From Streptomyces hundungensis (GTDB lineage Bacteria > Actinomycetota > Actinomycetes > Streptomycetales > Streptomycetaceae), in NCBI RefSeq assembly GCF_003627815.1, contig NZ_CP032698.1, positions 4,464,001 through 4,528,000 on the forward strand: 64,000 nt of DNA, given 5' to 3'. The notes beneath the pieces were generated by a model that saw only the letters and a list, made by a program, of their open reading frames with translations, ran no database searches and was not told the origin of the DNA. Numbering within the stretch: the stretch's first letter is position 1; every line of letters starts with the position of its first letter. A program made the translations under genes and the position numbers. Shown piece by piece: positions 16,457-60,128 of the stretch.

Positions 16457-16940
16457 GCCCCCTGGGGCTCCGCCCCAGCCCCCAGGCACGTCGCCCACCC
16501 ACCCGCCCGTGCAGCGCGTTGAAGGGTTCGGCCCCTGGGGCTCCGCCCCAGACCCCGACGCGTTTGCCCACCCGCCCGCCCGTAGGCGCAGGGTTGGATG
16601 GCCCGGGCCTCCTGGGGCTCTGCCCCAGACCCCGTTCGCGCCTTAAGGGCGCTCGTCCTCAATCGCCGGACGGGCTGAGGTGCTGGCCAGCACCGAGCAT
16701 TTAAGGGGCGCGGGGAACTGCGCGCCCAGCCACGCACGACCCGCAGACGAAAACGGGTTTAGGGGCGCGGGGAACTGCGCGAGAAGCGGGCACGGTCCGC
16801 AGGTTCGAGAGGGTTTAGGGGCGCGGGGAACTGCGCGCCCAGCCACGCACGGCCCGCAGACGAAAACGGGTTTTTTGGGGGCGCGGGGAACTGCGCAAAA
16901 AGTGGGCCCGGTTCGTGGTGGCGGGGGGCTAGGGGCGCGG
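16457..16940 (+). repeat. Dispersed repeat array B, overlapping the 3' end of the FUSC transporter gene
   Basis: Three CTGGGGCTCYGCCCCAG hairpins (near 16462, 16537 and 16612) are separated by CCCACCC-GCCCG-type spacers. The block CGCCTTAAGGGCGCTCG, the palindrome GTGCTGGCCAGCAC (near 16679) and four core copies of GGGGCGCGGGGAACTGCGCG (from near 16707, 16763, 16818 and 16878) follow, with a partial copy near 16931. The part from 16643 is read in the minus strand as the tail of the FUSC protein. Confidence 0.85.
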
Positions 16941-18886
16941 GGAGGTGATGGTTCGGGCGGCCAGGACCTCCTGGCGGAGGGGGCGAGGACCCCCTCCGCG
17001 TCGCCCGAGAGGCGCACCCGAACCGCCACCAGGTTCTCGCTCCGCCGCAACCCCCGAGCCAATTCGCGGAGCTGCTCCGCGACCTCCCGTACCTCCCCCG
17101 CCGCAGGCCAAGCCGCTCCGTGGTTGACCCGGACCCGCGCCGCCGTCGTCGCGTCCACGATGCGTTCGACGGCGACGACCAGCGGCCACCACGCGGCGGC
17201 CCGCGGCCCGGTGGGCGGGGGCTCGGTCAGGGCCCGCTGGAACTCGCTGCGTACCGTCGACAGGTCGCGGTACAACCGGCGCCGCCGACGCGCCCGTTCG
17301 GCCCGGTCGTCCTCGGAGCCGAACGCGTAGTCCACGTAGTCCGCCGTCGCCGCCACCGCGTCCGCGAGCCGGGTTCCGATGCGGGTGTGCCAGCTTTCGG
17401 GCCACAGCAGATAGCCCGCGACGAGTGCGATCGCGCAGCCGATGAGGCTGTCCCACAGGCGCGGCATGACCAGTTCGAAGCCCTGGTGGTTGAGGACGTC
17501 GGAGAGCAGCAGGATCACGGGGGTGATGGCGGCGGTCTGGAAGGCGTACCCCTTCGCGGAGAAGGCGGGGATGAGGGCGGCGAGCAGCAGCAGCACCGGC
17601 ACGTCCCACCAGCCGCGCGGCACCTCCGCGAGGACGGCGGCGGCGATGAGGAGGCCGCCCGCGGTGCCGACCGCCCGCATCAGGGCGCGGGCGAAGACCG
17701 AGCCGAAGTCGGGCTTGAGGACGAAGACGATGGTGAGCGCGACCCAGTACGAGCGCTCCACCGGAACCACCGACACCAGCACCTGCGCGAGCCCGATGCA
17801 GAGCGCGAGGCGCAGTCCGTAGCGCCAGGAGGCGCCGGAGAGCAGGACGTTGCGGGTGGCGCGGCGCAGCCGGATGCGCAGGGCGGCGGGCCGGCCGAGG
17901 CGGTCGTCGATGTTGGTCTGGTCGGGGTCGGGGTGGTGCACCACGGTGAAGGCGTGCCGCAGCGCGATGTCCAGGGCGCGCTCGGCGGGGGTGGTGGGCG
18001 CGGGCAGCTCGGGGTCGACGGGTGCGGTGCTGCCCGCGTCGACCGCGTCCGCCAACTGCCGTACGGCAGCCGGGATTTGGGGGTCCACGCCCCAGCCGCG
18101 CAGATGCACCGCGGGGGCCGCTTCCACGAGCGGGATCAGCGCGTTGAGCTGGGCCAGCAGCCGCACCAGCTCACCGCGTCTGCCGTGTTCGCGGGCGCGC
18201 CGGCCGAGGATCAGGTCGTAGGTGGTGTTGAGGGAGTGCGTGAGGTCCTGGCGCCGGGTGTCGTACGCCTCGGTCGCGGCGGCCTCGATGGCTTCGGCGG
18301 CGGCGCGGTAGCTCCCGGCGACGGCGGCCCGTTCGGGTTCGGTGCGCCGCAGCGGCCAGCCGAGCAGGCTCAGGAGCAGCACGAACAGGCCGCCGAGCGC
18401 CAGCAGGAGCGGGCCCTTCCACCAGGGGCCCGGCATGGGCAGGCCCGCGCCGACGACGGCGTTCAGGAGGAGCAGCAGCCCCGACACCGAGGCGACCGCG
18501 CCGATCGAGGAGATCATCCCGGAGGCCAGCGCGACCAGGGTCAGGGCGGCCACCGCGAGCCAGCCGTGCCCGAAGACGAGGCTGCCGACGGTCACACCGA
18601 GCGCGCCGAACAGCTGCGGTACGGCGATGTTGTAGATCCGCATGCGGTACGCGTCGGCCGTGTCGCCGATGACTCCGCTGAGCGCGCCCATGGAGGCCAG
18701 CGCGCCGTACGCGCTCTGCCCGGTGGCCAGACCCACGGCCAGCGGTGCGGCCAGGGCGATCCCCGCGCGGGCGACGGCCGGCCAGGGGATCGGCGCGGGA
18801 GTCGGCCGCAGCCCCCCGATGAGCCACTCCGGTGGCACGAGACGGCCCTGCCGCGTGCTGCCCTCCGCCCGCTTCTGATCAGCCAT
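16643..18886 (-). CDS. FUSC-family membrane protein (aromatic-acid exporter type) with repeat-derived C-terminal tail
   Basis: 747 residues. Two sets of membrane helices, about 35-190 and 390-510 (for example LLIAAAVLAEVP and ALIPAFSAKGYAFQTAAITPVILLL), are separated by a soluble helical region, the layout of FUSC/YccS/ArAE transporters. Helical cytoplasmic segments follow. The natural protein appears to end near residue 655. The remaining 90 or so residues (AQFPAPL repeated, RAVPRAPK, SARPAIEDERP) are translated dispersed repeat, with the stop supplied by the TTAA in the repeat block. Start at ATG 18886. The substrate is unknown; family members export aromatic acids or related compounds. Confidence 0.75.
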   Translation of the reverse strand: MADQKRAEGSTRQGRLVPPEWLIGGLRPTPAPIPWPAVARAGIALAAPLAVGLATGQSAYGALASMGALSGVIGDTADAYRMRIYNIAVPQLFGALGVTVGSLVFGHGWLAVAALTLVALASGMISSIGAVASVSGLLLLLNAVVGAGLPMPGPWWKGPLLLALGGLFVLLLSLLGWPLRRTEPERAAVAGSYRAAAEAIEAAATEAYDTRRQDLTHSLNTTYDLILGRRAREHGRRGELVRLLAQLNALIPLVEAAPAVHLRGWGVDPQIPAAVRQLADAVDAGSTAPVDPELPAPTTPAERALDIALRHAFTVVHHPDPDQTNIDDRLGRPAALRIRLRRATRNVLLSGASWRYGLRLALCIGLAQVLVSVVPVERSYWVALTIVFVLKPDFGSVFARALMRAVGTAGGLLIAAAVLAEVPRGWWDVPVLLLLAALIPAFSAKGYAFQTAAITPVILLLSDVLNHQGFELVMPRLWDSLIGCAIALVAGYLLWPESWHTRIGTRLADAVAATADYVDYAFGSEDDRAERARRRRRLYRDLSTVRSEFQRALTEPPPTGPRAAAWWPLVVAVERIVDATTAARVRVNHGAAWPAAGEVREVAEQLRELARGLRRSENLVAVRVRLSGDAEGVLAPSARRSWPPEPSPPRAPSPPPPRTGPTFCAVPRAPKKPVFVCGPCVAGRAVPRAPKPSRTCGPCPLLAQFPAPLNPFSSAGRAWLGAQFPAPLKCSVLASTSARPAIEDERP

Positions 18887-18970
18887 GAGCACACAACACC
18901 GCAGAAAGATCACTTGGCGCAAACGGGACGGTCACGATCACGGTCACGGGGACGGTTGAAAGCGCAAAAG

Positions 18971-55670: not shown

Positions 55671-55679
55671 GAGGTGTCC

Positions 55680-56846
55680 ATGGGATCCAGGAGCTCCACC
55701 ACCAGCACCGCGGATGTCATCGTGGTGGGCGCGGGCGTCGTGGGGGCCGCCTGTGCCTACTACGCGGCCCGCGCCGGCCTCGCCGTCACCGTCCTCGACC
55801 GGGGCCCGGTGGCGGGCGGCACCACGGGGTCGGGCGAGGGCAACCTCCTCGTCTCCGACAAGGAACCCGGCCCCGAACTCGAACTCGCCCTGCATTCGGC
55901 CCGGTTGTGGCGTGAGCTCGCCGAACTGTTGCCGCGCGCGGTCGAGTACGAGCCCAAGGGTGGCCTCGTCGTCGCCGCCGACGAGGCGGGCCTGACCGCG
56001 CTGCGCGCCTTCGCGGCGGGCCAGGAGAAGGCGGGCGTGACCGCACGCGAAGTGCCGGCCGACCGGCTGCACGACCTGGAGCCGCACCTGGCGCCGGGTC
56101 TCGCGGGGGGCTTCCACTATCCCCAGGACGCCCAGGTCATGCCCGCCCTCGCCGCCGCCCATCTGCTGCGCGCCTCGGGCGCGGACGTCCGGCTCGGGCA
56201 GGAGGTCACCGGGCTGCTCATCGGGGACGGCGGCGCGGTGCGGGGGGTACGGACCGCCTCCGGCGTGCTGCACGCGCCGTACGTGGTGAACGCGGCGGGC
56301 ACCTGGGGCGGCGAACTCGCCCGCCTTGCGGGGGTGTTGCTGCCCGTCCTGCCCCGGCGCGGCTTCGTCCTGGTCACCGAGCCGCTGCCGCGCGTCGTAC
56401 GGCACAAGGTGTACGCGGCGGACTATGTCGCCGACGTCGCCAGCGGCTCGGCGGCGCTCCAGACCTCGGCGGTCGTCGAGGGCACCCCGGCGGGACCGGT
56501 CCTCATCGGCGCGAGCCGCGAACGTGTCGGGTTCGACCGGAGCCTCTCGGTGGAGGCGGTGGGCCGGCTCGCGGCGGGGGCGACCGCGCTCTTCCCCTTC
56601 CTCGCGGGGGTACGGGCGATCCGTACGTACGCGGGGTTCCGGCCGTATCTGCCCGACCACCTTCCGGCGATCGGGGCGGACGGGCGGGTGCCGGGGCTGT
56701 TGCACGCGTGCGGGCACGAGGGGGCGGGGATCGGGCTCGCGCCCGTGACGGGCCGGATCATCGCGGACTGCGTGCTCGGCCGCCAACCGCCCCTGGACAT
56801 CGCCCCGCTCGACCCGGCCCGCTTCGGCGCGGGTTCCGTTTCCTGA
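55680..56846 (+). CDS. FAD-dependent D-amino-acid/glycine oxidase-type oxidoreductase (DAO family)
   Basis: 388 residues. The N-terminal Rossmann motif is VIVVGAGVVGAACAYYAARA (GxGxxG), with VLDRG for the second strand and GTTGSGEGNLL for flavin contact. The C-terminal end contains RTYAGFRPYLPDHLPAIG and HACGHEGAGIGLAPVTGRII. Such proteins form the catalytic subunit of hydroxyproline/proline-type or opine dehydrogenases together with [2Fe-2S] and NAD-linked FAD subunits, as with the gene that follows by ten bases. The substrate is unknown. Start ATG 55680 behind GAGG; GTG 55674 is an alternative. Confidence 0.85.
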   Translation: MGSRSSTTSTADVIVVGAGVVGAACAYYAARAGLAVTVLDRGPVAGGTTGSGEGNLLVSDKEPGPELELALHSARLWRELAELLPRAVEYEPKGGLVVAADEAGLTALRAFAAGQEKAGVTAREVPADRLHDLEPHLAPGLAGGFHYPQDAQVMPALAAAHLLRASGADVRLGQEVTGLLIGDGGAVRGVRTASGVLHAPYVVNAAGTWGGELARLAGVLLPVLPRRGFVLVTEPLPRVVRHKVYAADYVADVASGSAALQTSAVVEGTPAGPVLIGASRERVGFDRSLSVEAVGRLAAGATALFPFLAGVRAIRTYAGFRPYLPDHLPAIGADGRVPGLLHACGHEGAGIGLAPVTGRIIADCVLGRQPPLDIAPLDPARFGAGSVS

Positions 56847-56856
56847 GGAGGCCTTC

Positions 56857-59373
56857 GTGGCACGCACCCCCGAGGAACTGGCCGGAGCCCGGCCCGGTCC
56901 CCCCTTCGAGATCACCCTCGACGGCCGCCCCATCCCGGCCCTGCCCGGCCAGAGCGTCGCGGCGGCGCTGTGGGCGGCGGGGGTCCTCGCCTGGCGCCGG
57001 ACGCGGGTGGGGGGCCGGGGCGGGGGTGCGTTCTGCGGGATCGGGGCGTGTTACGAGTGCCTCGCGACGGTGAACGGGGTGCCGAATCGGAGGGCCTGTC
57101 TTGTGCGGGCGGGGGCGGGTGATGCGGTGGTGACGCAGTCCGGGGCGGGGTGGGGGGCGGGGCCGTTCGCGCAGTTCCCCGCGCCCCTGGGGGGTGCGGC
57201 CTCGCCTTCGTCCGCGGACCGTGCGGGGCCGTTCGCGCAGTTCCCCGCGCCCCTGGGGGGTGCGGCCTCGCCTTCGTCCGCGGACCGTGCTGGGCTGGGC
57301 GCGCAGTTCCCCGCGCCCCTGGGTGGGTTGGGGGGAGAGGGTGTGGTTGCTTCGGGGGGTTCCGGCTGCAACCCCGCTGAGCTCTCCGGGGGCCCGGGCT
57401 CCAACGCCGCTGAGCACTCCGGGGGCCCGGACTGCAATCCCGCTAGGGGCGCGGGGAACTGCGCGAGTGCGCCAGCACGGTCCGCAGACGAAGGCGAAGG
57501 CGGGGACGCCGGTCCGGCTGAGGCCTTGGAGGGCCGGGGCTCCAGCCCCGCTAGGGGCGCGGGGAACTGCGCGAGTGCGCCAGCACGGTCTGCGGGCGAA
57601 GGCGGGGACGCCGGTCCGGCCGAGGTCTCGGAGGGCCGGGGCTGCAACGCCGCTAGGGGCGCGGGGAACTGCGCGAGTGCGCCAGCACGGTCCGCAGACG
57701 GAGGCGGGGACGCCGGTCCGGCTGAGGCCTCGGAGGGCCGGGGCTCCAGCCCCGCTAGGGGCGCGGGGAACTGCGCGGGTGCGCCAGCACGGTCCGCAGA
57801 CGAAGGCGAAGGCGGGGACGCCGGTCCGGCTGAGGCCTTGGAGGGCCGGGGCTCCAGCCCCGCTAGGGGCGCGGGGAACTGCGCGAGCGGCCCCGTACGG
57901 TCCGCAGGGGAGTACGACCTCGTGGTCGTGGGGGGCGGGCCCGCCGGGGTCGTGGGGGCCGCCACCGCAGCCGAGCTGGGGCTGCGGGTCGCCGTCGTGG
58001 ACCTGGGTCCACACGTCGGCGGCCAGTTCTACCGAACCCCCGCCGCCGAACTCAACGCCACCCGCCCGGACGCCCTGCACCACGACTGGCCCACCTTCGA
58101 AAGGTGGCACGAGCGGATGGACGCCCCCCGCGTCACACGCCTCGCCCGGCACCACGTCTGGGCGATCGAGCGCCACGCCGAGCAGGAGTGGACGGTCCAC
58201 GCCGTCACCGGCGCCGACGGCAACGACACGCGCCCGGTACGGATACCGGCCCGGGCCGTGCTGCTCGCCACCGGCGCGTACGAGCGTCAACTCCCCTTCA
58301 AGGGTTGGACGTTGCCCGGTGTCGTCGGGGCCGGCGGGGCGCAGGCCATGCTCAAGGGCGGGCTCGTGCTGCCCGGGAAGCGGGTCGTCGTCGCGGGAAG
58401 CGGACCGCTGCTGCTCGCCGTGGCCTCCTCACTCGCCGAGGCCGGCGCCGACGTTCCGGCCGTCATCGAGGCGTCCGGCTACCTCGGTTACGCCCGGCAC
58501 CCCCGCACGCTCGCCACCAACCCGCACAAGCTCATCGAGGCCGCCACGCACGGCACGACGCTGCTGCGCCACCGGGTGCCGCTGCGCACCCGCAGCGCGG
58601 TCACCGAGGTGCACGGCGCGGAACGCGTCGAGGCCGTCACCGTCACGCGGCTCGACGAGCGGTGGCGGCCGGTGCCGGGCACGTGGCGCGAGATCGCCTG
58701 CGACGCGCTGGCCGTCGGTCACGGACTGGTCCCCGCGATCGAGCTCGCCACCACCCTCGGCTGCGCCACCCGCGTCACCCCCGACCACACCCTCGCCCTC
58801 GCCCTGGACACCCGCCAGGAGACCTCGGTGCGCGGACTGTGGGCGGCGGGCGAGCCCGGGGGAGTGGGCGGGGTCCAAATGGCCCTCGCGGAAGGGGAGT
58901 TGGCGGCACGCGCCATCGCCGCCCGGCTGGGTGCGTACCCGGGCCCGGGTGGGCGCGTGCGGCGGTTGCGGTCCCGCCGCACCCGGCTGCGTACGTTCGC
59001 CGAAGCGATGGCCGCCCTGCACGCGCCGGGACCCGGCTGGAGCGAGTGGCTCGGCGACGACACCGAGGTGTGCCGCTGCGAGGAGGTCACGGCGGGCGCC
59101 ATCCGCGAGGCCGTGCGCGAGCAGGGCGCCCGCGACGCCCGTACGGTCAAACTCCTCACCCGGGCCGGCATGGGCTGGTGCCAGGGCCGCACCTGTGGAG
59201 CGGCGGTGGCGTGTCTGGCCGGAGACGGCCAACCACCCGCGCAGCGGCGCCCGTTCGCGGTGCCGGTCCCGCTCGGAGCCCTCGCCGCCCTGGCGCCGGC
59301 GGCGCCCGAGGACCCACCCCTCGCCGCCCCGGCCCCGGCGGCCGCCGTCACACCGGAGGAGTCCCAAACGTAA
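56857..59373 (+). CDS. [2Fe-2S]-FAD oxidoreductase fusion with an in-frame dispersed-repeat linker
   Basis: 838 residues. Residues 1-98 are a [2Fe-2S] domain (C60, C65, C68, C81: FCGIGACYEC and RACL). From residue 352 an FAD/NAD(P) domain begins (EYDLVVVGGGPAGVVGAATA) and continues with LLATGAYERQLPFKGWTLPG and VVVAGSGPLLLAVASSLAEA. Cys-rich EVCRCEEVTAGAIREAV and GWCQGRTCGAAVACL form a BFD-like [2Fe-2S] site. In relatives the two parts are usually separate genes or directly joined. Here residues about 104-351 are translated dispersed repeat: three inverted copies (AQFPAPL) and five direct copies (ARGAGNCA), with no stop and all in frame. It follows the DAO gene by 10 bases and probably forms one dehydrogenase with it. 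Confidence 0.75.
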   Translation: MARTPEELAGARPGPPFEITLDGRPIPALPGQSVAAALWAAGVLAWRRTRVGGRGGGAFCGIGACYECLATVNGVPNRRACLVRAGAGDAVVTQSGAGWGAGPFAQFPAPLGGAASPSSADRAGPFAQFPAPLGGAASPSSADRAGLGAQFPAPLGGLGGEGVVASGGSGCNPAELSGGPGSNAAEHSGGPDCNPARGAGNCASAPARSADEGEGGDAGPAEALEGRGSSPARGAGNCASAPARSAGEGGDAGPAEVSEGRGCNAARGAGNCASAPARSADGGGDAGPAEASEGRGSSPARGAGNCAGAPARSADEGEGGDAGPAEALEGRGSSPARGAGNCASGPVRSAGEYDLVVVGGGPAGVVGAATAAELGLRVAVVDLGPHVGGQFYRTPAAELNATRPDALHHDWPTFERWHERMDAPRVTRLARHHVWAIERHAEQEWTVHAVTGADGNDTRPVRIPARAVLLATGAYERQLPFKGWTLPGVVGAGGAQAMLKGGLVLPGKRVVVAGSGPLLLAVASSLAEAGADVPAVIEASGYLGYARHPRTLATNPHKLIEAATHGTTLLRHRVPLRTRSAVTEVHGAERVEAVTVTRLDERWRPVPGTWREIACDALAVGHGLVPAIELATTLGCATRVTPDHTLALALDTRQETSVRGLWAAGEPGGVGGVQMALAEGELAARAIAARLGAYPGPGGRVRRLRSRRTRLRTFAEAMAALHAPGPGWSEWLGDDTEVCRCEEVTAGAIREAVREQGARDARTVKLLTRAGMGWCQGRTCGAAVACLAGDGQPPAQRRPFAVPVPLGALAALAPAAPEDPPLAAPAPAAAVTPEESQT
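57165..57905. repeat. Dispersed repeat array G, inside a coding sequence (three inverted plus five direct copies)
   Basis: The inverted core (GCAGTTCCCCGCGCCCCTG) occurs near 57170, 57236 and 57302. Direct cores (GGGGCGCGGGGAACTGCGCG) begin at 57446, 57554, 57656, 57758 and 57866. Direct spacings are 108, 102, 102 and 108 bases, all multiples of three, so the frame is kept. The units end in TCCGCAG/CACGGTCYGC as in the intergenic arrays and add a GGAGGGCCGGGGCT-like segment. Confidence 0.9.
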
Positions 59374-59387
59374 CGTGACATTGTACT
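59373..59387. promoter_or_regulatory. Candidate FCD-GntR operator, site 3 (upstream of its own gene)
   Basis: ACGTGACATTGTACT starts at the last base of the preceding stop codon and lies 34 bp before the GntR start. It is the third member of the AYGTGAMATWKYACY set. Confidence 0.55.
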
Positions 59388-59420
59388 CTGGGTCTCCGCT
59401 CGGTACGGAGGAACAGCAGC

Positions 59421-60128
59421 ATGGGACACCTGAAGCAGAGCAAGGTCATCACCACCACCGAGCGGCTGCGCGACCAGGTCGCCCACGCGCTGCGTGCGGC
59501 GCTGATCTCCGGTGAACTGCGCCCCGGCCAGGTCTACTCGGCGCCCGGCCTCGCCGAGGACTTCGGCATCTCCGCGACCCCCGTGCGCGAGGCCATGCTC
59601 GACCTCGCGCGCGAAGGCCTCGTGGAGCCGGTCCGCAACAAGGGCTTCCGGGTCACCGAGGTCAACGAGCGCGACCTCGACCAGTACACCGAGATCCGCG
59701 CACTGATCGAGGTCCCGATGATCGGCCGGATCACCCGCTCCGCGGACCGCGCCGACCTGGAGGCGCTGCGGCCGGTCGCCGAGGAGATCGTGCGCGCGGC
59801 CCGCGACCACGACCTCATCGGCTATCTGGAGGCCGACCGCCGCTTCCATCTGTCCCTGCTCGCCCTGTCGGGCAACGAGCGCCTCGTGGAGACCGTCGGC
59901 GACCTGCGCAAGCGGTCCCGCCTGTACGGTCTGACCGCCCTGGACCAGCGGGACGAGCTGATCCCGTCCGCCGAGGAGCACATCGAACTCCTCGACCTGA
60001 TGCTGGCCGGGGACGCCCGGGGCGCCGAGAAGTGCATGACCCGCCACCTCGGCCACGTCCGCTCGCTGTGGGCGAGGAGCGAGGCCGCCGACGCCAAGCC
60101 CAAGCGCCGCCTGGGCGCGAGCCGCTGA
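59421..60128 (+). CDS. GntR-family regulator, FCD (FadR) type
   Basis: 235 residues. The winged helix at about 15-75 (LRDQVAHALRAALISGELRP, then GLAEDFGISATPVREAMLDL) is followed by an all-helical FCD domain (LDQYTEIRALIEVPMIGRIT, LEADRRFHLSLLALSGNERL and EEHIELLDLMLAGDARGAEK). The Asp/His pattern (EADRRFH, AEEHIELL) is that of metal-binding FCD domains. It sits at the end of the oxidase genes, and matching motifs occur before it, before the DAO gene and before the transporter. A local repressor responding to an imported substrate is the likely role. Confidence 0.9.
   Translation: MGHLKQSKVITTTERLRDQVAHALRAALISGELRPGQVYSAPGLAEDFGISATPVREAMLDLAREGLVEPVRNKGFRVTEVNERDLDQYTEIRALIEVPMIGRITRSADRADLEALRPVAEEIVRAARDHDLIGYLEADRRFHLSLLALSGNERLVETVGDLRKRSRLYGLTALDQRDELIPSAEEHIELLDLMLAGDARGAEKCMTRHLGHVRSLWARSEAADAKPKRRLGASR

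Follow-up and report, generated by a model that had tools for sequence, protein, structure and literature searches.

Dispersed repeats that lie in frame inside genuine protein genes are described for the Rickettsia palindromic elements (RPE; PMC10969869). REP clusters also occur inside ORFs in several genera, the larger encoded regions reported being of 43-82 amino acids in Thauera and R. conorii; the GTAG and CGTC superfamilies of REP are defined by a tag at one end of the palindrome, and RAYTs are given as the drivers of REPs (PMC3733652). The locus described here, in a 64-kb window (64,000 nucleotides, the whole stretch of DNA analysed) of the Streptomyces hundungensis genome, carries eight copies of a dispersed repeat within one open frame, between a [2Fe-2S] domain and an FAD domain. 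The reading we favour, at a probability of roughly 0.7, is that the repeat built a fusion of the [2Fe-2S] and FAD subunit genes, so that one chain with a predicted disordered linker would be encoded. The organization of the locus is as follows.

55674 to 56846, plus strand: upstream partner, a DAO-family FAD oxidoreductase gene (PF01266, 229.6 bits against a cutoff of 27.9)
56857 to 59373, plus strand: fused ORF of 838 codons, GTG start 5 nt downstream of GAGGAGG
56857 to 57144, plus strand: [2Fe-2S] (Fer2_4) part (PF13510, residues 16-95, 71.9 bits against a cutoff of 22.8)
57145 to 57906, plus strand: repeat-array linker, about residues 97-350, eight elements, pLDDT below 50 at residues 96-349
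57907 to 59373, plus strand: FAD and BFD-type [2Fe-2S] part (Pyr_redox_2 at residues 353-680, BFD at 738-785)
57922 to 57924, plus strand: possible internal GTG start (residue 356), AGGGGAG upstream; record P0001 starts at the equivalent residue
59421 to 60128, plus strand: downstream GntR/FCD regulator gene (PF00392 and PF07729, both above cutoffs)

Only 10 bases separate the DAO-family oxidoreductase gene from the fused ORF. Within the ORF, the Pyr_redox_2 and Fer2_BFD parts scored 87.8 and 41.5 bits against Pfam cutoffs of 26.1 and 26, respectively, and the Pyr_redox_2 match lies 257 residues from that of Fer2_4. The BFD cysteines 739, 741, 775 and 780 are invariant in a 42-sequence alignment, and four cysteines of the Fer2 part are found at 60, 65, 68 and 81, which we take to be cluster-binding. 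The trio of genes presumably resembles flavoenzymes of the HcnABC or the hydroxyproline/proline dehydrogenase type. Neither a promoter nor a terminator was detected in scans of 56840-58100, and an Rfam scan of 56000-60000 gave no match at E up to 1. In an AlphaFold2 run on the 42-sequence alignment, the FAD part was predicted at high confidence, its first strand being residues 353-358, and the Fer2 part mostly well (ten-residue means of 64-93 over residues 11-90). Residues 96-349 gave pLDDT below 50 and no secondary structure; this is consistent with a disordered linker, and low confidence is also expected there because the alignment has almost no depth. The closest folds by Foldseek were 1vrq_A, 2gag_A and 1y56_A, at about 20% identity.

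The element was searched for throughout the window as the 18-mer GCGCGGGGAACTGCGCGA with up to 3 mismatches, with 100 shuffles as control. A total of 29 matches were obtained, against a shuffle mean of 0.60 (largest 3), and eight of the 29 fall inside the fused ORF at the following positions, each identified as an 18-mer match.

57167 to 57184, minus strand: copy 1, inverted, read AQFPAPLGG
57233 to 57250, minus strand: copy 2, inverted
57299 to 57316, minus strand: copy 3, inverted
57449 to 57466, plus strand: copy 4, direct, read ARGAGNCA
57557 to 57574, plus strand: copy 5, direct
57659 to 57676, plus strand: copy 6, direct
57761 to 57778, plus strand: copy 7, direct
57869 to 57886, plus strand: copy 8, direct

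The search thus confirmed the three inverted and five direct copies that the original prediction had placed between the [2Fe-2S] and FAD domains, together with its spacings of 108, 102, 102 and 108 bases between direct copies, all multiples of three. The inverted copies are spaced at 66 and 66 bases.

The same repeat is abundant in the genome, a single contig of 8,393,044 bases: an exact 17-mer of it gave 598 copies (318 + 280), against 0 for the reversed control. Among 120 genomes searched, its own included, the repeat was present in 38 of the 73 of the same genus, at up to 743 copies, and in 2 of the 47 outside the genus, at one copy each. A scan of 2.464 Mb (2.4-4.4 and 4.6-5.0 Mb plus the window) detected 328 cores in 117 clusters, and most of the sampled copies fall outside called genes. 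The consensus of 314 copies shows the conserved core TTTAGGGGCGCGGGGAACTGCGCGA, after which comes a weaker, GC-rich stretch. These 314 copies, and the 190 same-strand spacings used below, are sampled controls from outside three gene-borne arrays and need not all be intergenic. Neighbouring copies on the same strand are spaced 55-61 or 114-117 bases apart in 143 of the 190 cases. All three single copies tried had as their minimum-energy fold a six-pair stem closed by a GGAA loop, hardly more stable than shuffled sequence (z = -0.35, -1.51 and -0.47).

Neither a GTAG nor a CGTC tag is present in the consensus of the 314 copies. A search of the window genome for RAYT (Y1_Tnp, PF01797) gave 0 matches, with 5 of 14 control genomes positive; since no Y1 transposase was found, the repeat is not established as a RAYT-driven REP. 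No paper containing the 12-mer GGGGAACTGCGC was found in the literature searched, most subscription journals being outside its reach, and among papers on Streptomyces intergenic repeats or repeat-made fusions, likewise with subscription journals mostly uncovered, none was recognised as being about this element; PMC1590033 names Streptomyces in its reference list only. Against a plasmid collection, matches cover 8-17% of the array in three Streptomyces records. The largest sampled array (genome 3,795,309-3,796,179) holds 14 copies in 871 bases; one of its six frames is stop-free, and one copy lies within the 3' end of what may be a coding frame. A second dispersed-looking repeat, of the GGGCGCTCGTCCTCAATCGCCGGACGGGCTGAGG type, adjoins the element at window positions around 16600-16680 and in the linker of an ABC ATPase gene described below (L144), where it likewise lies in frame.

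Comparison with orthologues had been proposed beforehand as a check. We classified 115 distinct loci, a subset of the homologue matches, after removal of 9 duplicates; two without Fer2 in the piece were left out, and the remaining 113 include some distant ones (FAD identity near 50%) and two loci from each of two genomes. In 111 of the 113, Fer2 ends at its own stop and FAD is encoded by a separate gene in another frame, and no fused locus without repeats was observed. Relative to Fer2, the FAD frame is +1 in 109 and +2 in 2 of the unfused loci. The genes nearly abut or overlap, the FAD alignment beginning a median of 8 nt after the Fer2 stop. The exact 14-base core of the element was detected between the two genes in none of the 111, a test that decayed copies at the junction would escape because it used the exact core. 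The nearest unfused relative sampled, G343 (L082; 82% DNA identity), has overlapping genes at the junction, and the repeat copies in its examined piece sit downstream of the GntR gene.

The two fused loci are that of the window strain and that of Streptomyces sp. ASQP_92 (L046), with eight elements each. The ASQP_92 array consists of four inverted and four direct copies, compared with three and five in the window strain, and its frame is open throughout, giving a predicted chain of 832 residues; the FAD part, without stops, is 88% identical between the two strains. As the fused loci are related, their insertions are not independent. The fused frame is present in 2 of 113 loci, originates from the repeat, and is shared by both strains despite turnover of the array. 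Its occurrence in an independent strain whose copies are arranged otherwise makes a sequencing error or a linker unrelated to the repeats unlikely. Repeat arrays are hard to assemble, and an assembly or sequencing artefact in this region would on that ground be a concern; we consider it highly improbable, as ASQP_92, which was assembled separately, shows the same architecture with a different arrangement of copies, and the window genome is a single 8.39 Mb contig.

These comparisons support the repeat-built fusion of the original prediction, through the shared frame and the rearranged array in ASQP_92, but not, as stated, its proposed route, in which an intergenic array lost its stops. The unfused relatives examined show no such array, their genes nearly abutting or overlapping in different frames, and on either strand of the element one frame is stop-poor to begin with. 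Among the 314 copies, stops occur in 11 and 14 in these two frames and in 47, 99, 124 and 165 in the other four. The stop-poor frame of its own strand is used by every one of the 16 copies in the window strain (8) and ASQP_92 (8).

The absence of stops had been taken as evidence of a coding frame. The frame is indeed open over the 838 codons, but it carries little weight as evidence, since other arrays of the repeat are often open too: among overlapping stretches in other arrays, 663 of 1456 were open at 300 nt, 228 of 494 at 450 nt, 90 of 126 at 600 nt (two arrays) and 29 of 50 at 750 nt (one array). Within the array of the fused ORF itself, one more of the forward frames and two of the reverse ones are likewise open. 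An open frame as proof of coding was accordingly rejected. A coding-like composition was also absent from the array, in which GC is flat across the three codon positions (0.77/0.78/0.80, compared with 0.80/0.59/0.91 in the FAD part). Differences between array units by codon position were 6, 19 and 9 within the window strain (no third-position excess), 8, 8 and 12 within ASQP_92 (little excess) and 69, 143 and 129 between the strains (no clear excess). The changed codons were mostly non-synonymous (25 of 34, 17 of 23 and 192 of 254, respectively), and no selection on the amino acids of the linker was seen. A database search with the linker only gave no match at E <= 0.001 among 7990 candidates scored. 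If the linker is translated, it would therefore be the frame alone that is kept, given the lack of amino-acid constraint and the flat GC by codon position.

The original interpretation is largely right, but the better argument for it lies in the keeping of frame and in the stop-poor frames, and not in the lack of stops. Of the 12 same-strand spacings in the two fused genes, all 12 are multiples of three, those of ASQP_92 being 102 six times; of the 190 outside gene-borne arrays, 62 are, and it is because just 62 fit that the rule is informative. As tandem copies are not independent, distinct spacing values were counted. All 5 distinct spacings in the fused gene are multiples of three (Fisher p = 0.004), as are all 8 when those of the ABC gene are included (Fisher p = 0.0002). 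The turn from inverted to direct copies measures 148 in the window strain and 58 in ASQP_92, leaving the same remainder, and the distance from codon 97 to the FAD motif is 768 nt in the former and 774 nt in the latter.

These results bear on a decaying locus, in which the array would have broken up the operon and a frame would be open simply because the repeats are GC-rich and stop-poor. The frequent openness of other arrays, the composition of the array codons and the unconstrained linker all agree with decay. We nevertheless regard it as quite improbable: the Fer2 and FAD parts both score above their family cutoffs, the BFD cysteines are invariant and the four Fer2 cysteines present, the FAD part is stop-free at 88% identity to ASQP_92, and the spacings keep the frame in both strains.

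A second way to account for the locus is continued production of two proteins: the FAD subunit would start internally, at GTG 57922 or at some other start codon in frame within the array, and the Fer2 frame would simply run on. The AGGGGAG before this GTG, the gene called from it by a simple gene finder, the several in-frame GTG and TTG codons within the array, and the NCBI-sourced records P0001 and P0002, which start the FAD protein in its first-strand motif, are all in its favour. The GTG is not conserved, however, ASQP_92 having GTT at the equivalent codon. The recorded start in ASQP_92 lies two codons later (equivalent to residue 358), so that only the final residue of the predicted first FAD strand would be retained, and by eye a nearer upstream GTG in that strain has no obvious ribosome site. 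The fused chain should also appear under this scheme, because a ribosome starting at Fer2 meets no stop, and the keeping of frame across array turnover is left unexplained. Internal initiation in place of a fusion is therefore judged unlikely, though less so than decay. The RNA of the array is predicted to fold strongly (-600 kcal/mol, z -16.5, 20 shuffles), and such a fold might impede translation.

Annotated records give a different picture of these proteins. The 120 database homologues listed of 1119 all have lengths of 470-558 residues, and none of these records shows the fusion. The ASQP_92 protein itself is recorded as a 473-residue FAD protein, although no stop interrupts its frame as far back as the start of Fer2. 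P0001, a Streptomyces hundungensis FAD protein, shows 95% identity over 435 residues. Like P0001 and P0002, another two FAD proteins from Streptomyces, P0009 and P0012, are recorded with starts inside the FAD motif, and their junctions could hide the same arrangement. In P0003 (538 aa), the peptide AQFAAPL at residues 51-57, just before the FAD motif, is one residue off the inverted reading AQFPAPL of the element, possibly an older or intermediate insertion. The FAD protein of L099 (G342) carries an unrelated in-frame tandem repeat, of GEREGRTGAGTD-type units, inside the FAD domain.

Other genes carrying the repeat were sought by a strict criterion, namely a strong coding signal in one frame on both flanks together with Pfam domains on both flanks. 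Two of the 117 clusters (10 cores) showed this combination, one in the fused oxidoreductase and the other in a double ABC ATPase (L144:11162-13153, minus strand, genome about 3,071,162-3,073,153). The linker between the ATPase domains contains two in-frame elements in the window strain and three, differently arranged, in ASQP_92 (L171); the element is absent from the linker, which is shorter, in all seven other genomes searched. The ATPase ORF is continuous in all nine genomes compared, and the five copies in the two ABC genes all use stop-poor frames. This one-chain ATPase supports the view that the element may be able to serve as a linker, a role that it would suit by virtue of one stop-poor frame on each strand. 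In a FUSC-family gene (window 16643-18892, minus strand), the C-terminal tail runs through four inverted copies in two different frames, stop-poor frames being used by 2 of the 4. Other candidates of the scan lie at genome 2496712, 3796126 and 3818712, the first and third with a weaker signal on both flanks.

For the repeat-built fusion, we propose the following course of events. An array of the dispersed repeat would have entered the junction of neighbouring [2Fe-2S] and FAD subunit genes of an amino-acid dehydrogenase-type flavoenzyme, probably in an ancestor that the window strain shares with ASQP_92. By displacing the Fer2 stop and the FAD start, it would have aligned both genes in one frame, and the operon would now encode a single polypeptide with a disordered linker of roughly 255 residues. 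The array would have turned over since, with the same frame kept in both strains. The separate state is presumably ancestral, and one insertion probably founded the array. The single chain is probably translated, and it probably keeps enzyme activity as well, because both domains are intact and an unstructured tether should tolerate any length that keeps the frame.

More broadly, and with confidence only slightly better than even, we suggest that the repeat supplies Streptomyces with disordered linkers ready for use, lengthening linkers and welding neighbouring genes, with selection on frame rather than on sequence and with copy number free to change so long as it does so in multiples of three. 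Most gene fusions are inferred only when they are already old; in this case relatives allow the unfused state, the fused state and the probable causal repeat to be set side by side. A single stop-poor frame on each strand is suggested as the rule that makes a repeat tolerable inside genes. Database records can hide such fusions, as seen for ASQP_92 at 473 residues, and chains of this kind would serve as natural experiments on redox domains connected by very long, flexible linkers.

Among solved structures, the nearest folds to the fused protein are those of the alpha subunits of heterotetrameric sarcosine oxidase and L-proline dehydrogenase; against the sarcosine oxidase alpha model (TIGR01372, SoxA) it scored 126.7 bits, below the NCBIfam cutoff of 1164. 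Directly fused Fer2-FAD proteins were found as nine hits at E <= 2.7e-19 and one at 3.3e-4, with domain order checked in five, and their existence makes a single chain compatible with the fold. These proteins, named from Micromonosporaceae, Kribbella and Phytohabitans, have the same domain order in one chain of 555-607 residues, with 20-42 residues between the Pfam matches in the five examined, compared with 257 here; element-derived peptides were detected in none of the ten hits. Compared with the intragenic GTAG/CGTC REPs, the present repeat has no tag in its core, and no Y1 transposase was found in its genome; the stretch is far longer, and it occupies the junction of two genes instead of an insertion within one. 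The repeat is like RPE in the way it works, since in the 2.464 Mb scan it was found both between genes and in frame within genes; this likeness concerns the mode of use. Unlike RPE, the repeat belongs to another phylum, and its array of eight, about 255 residues long, joins genes that are separate in relatives. What seems to be new is the size, the genus and, above all, the joining of two genes.
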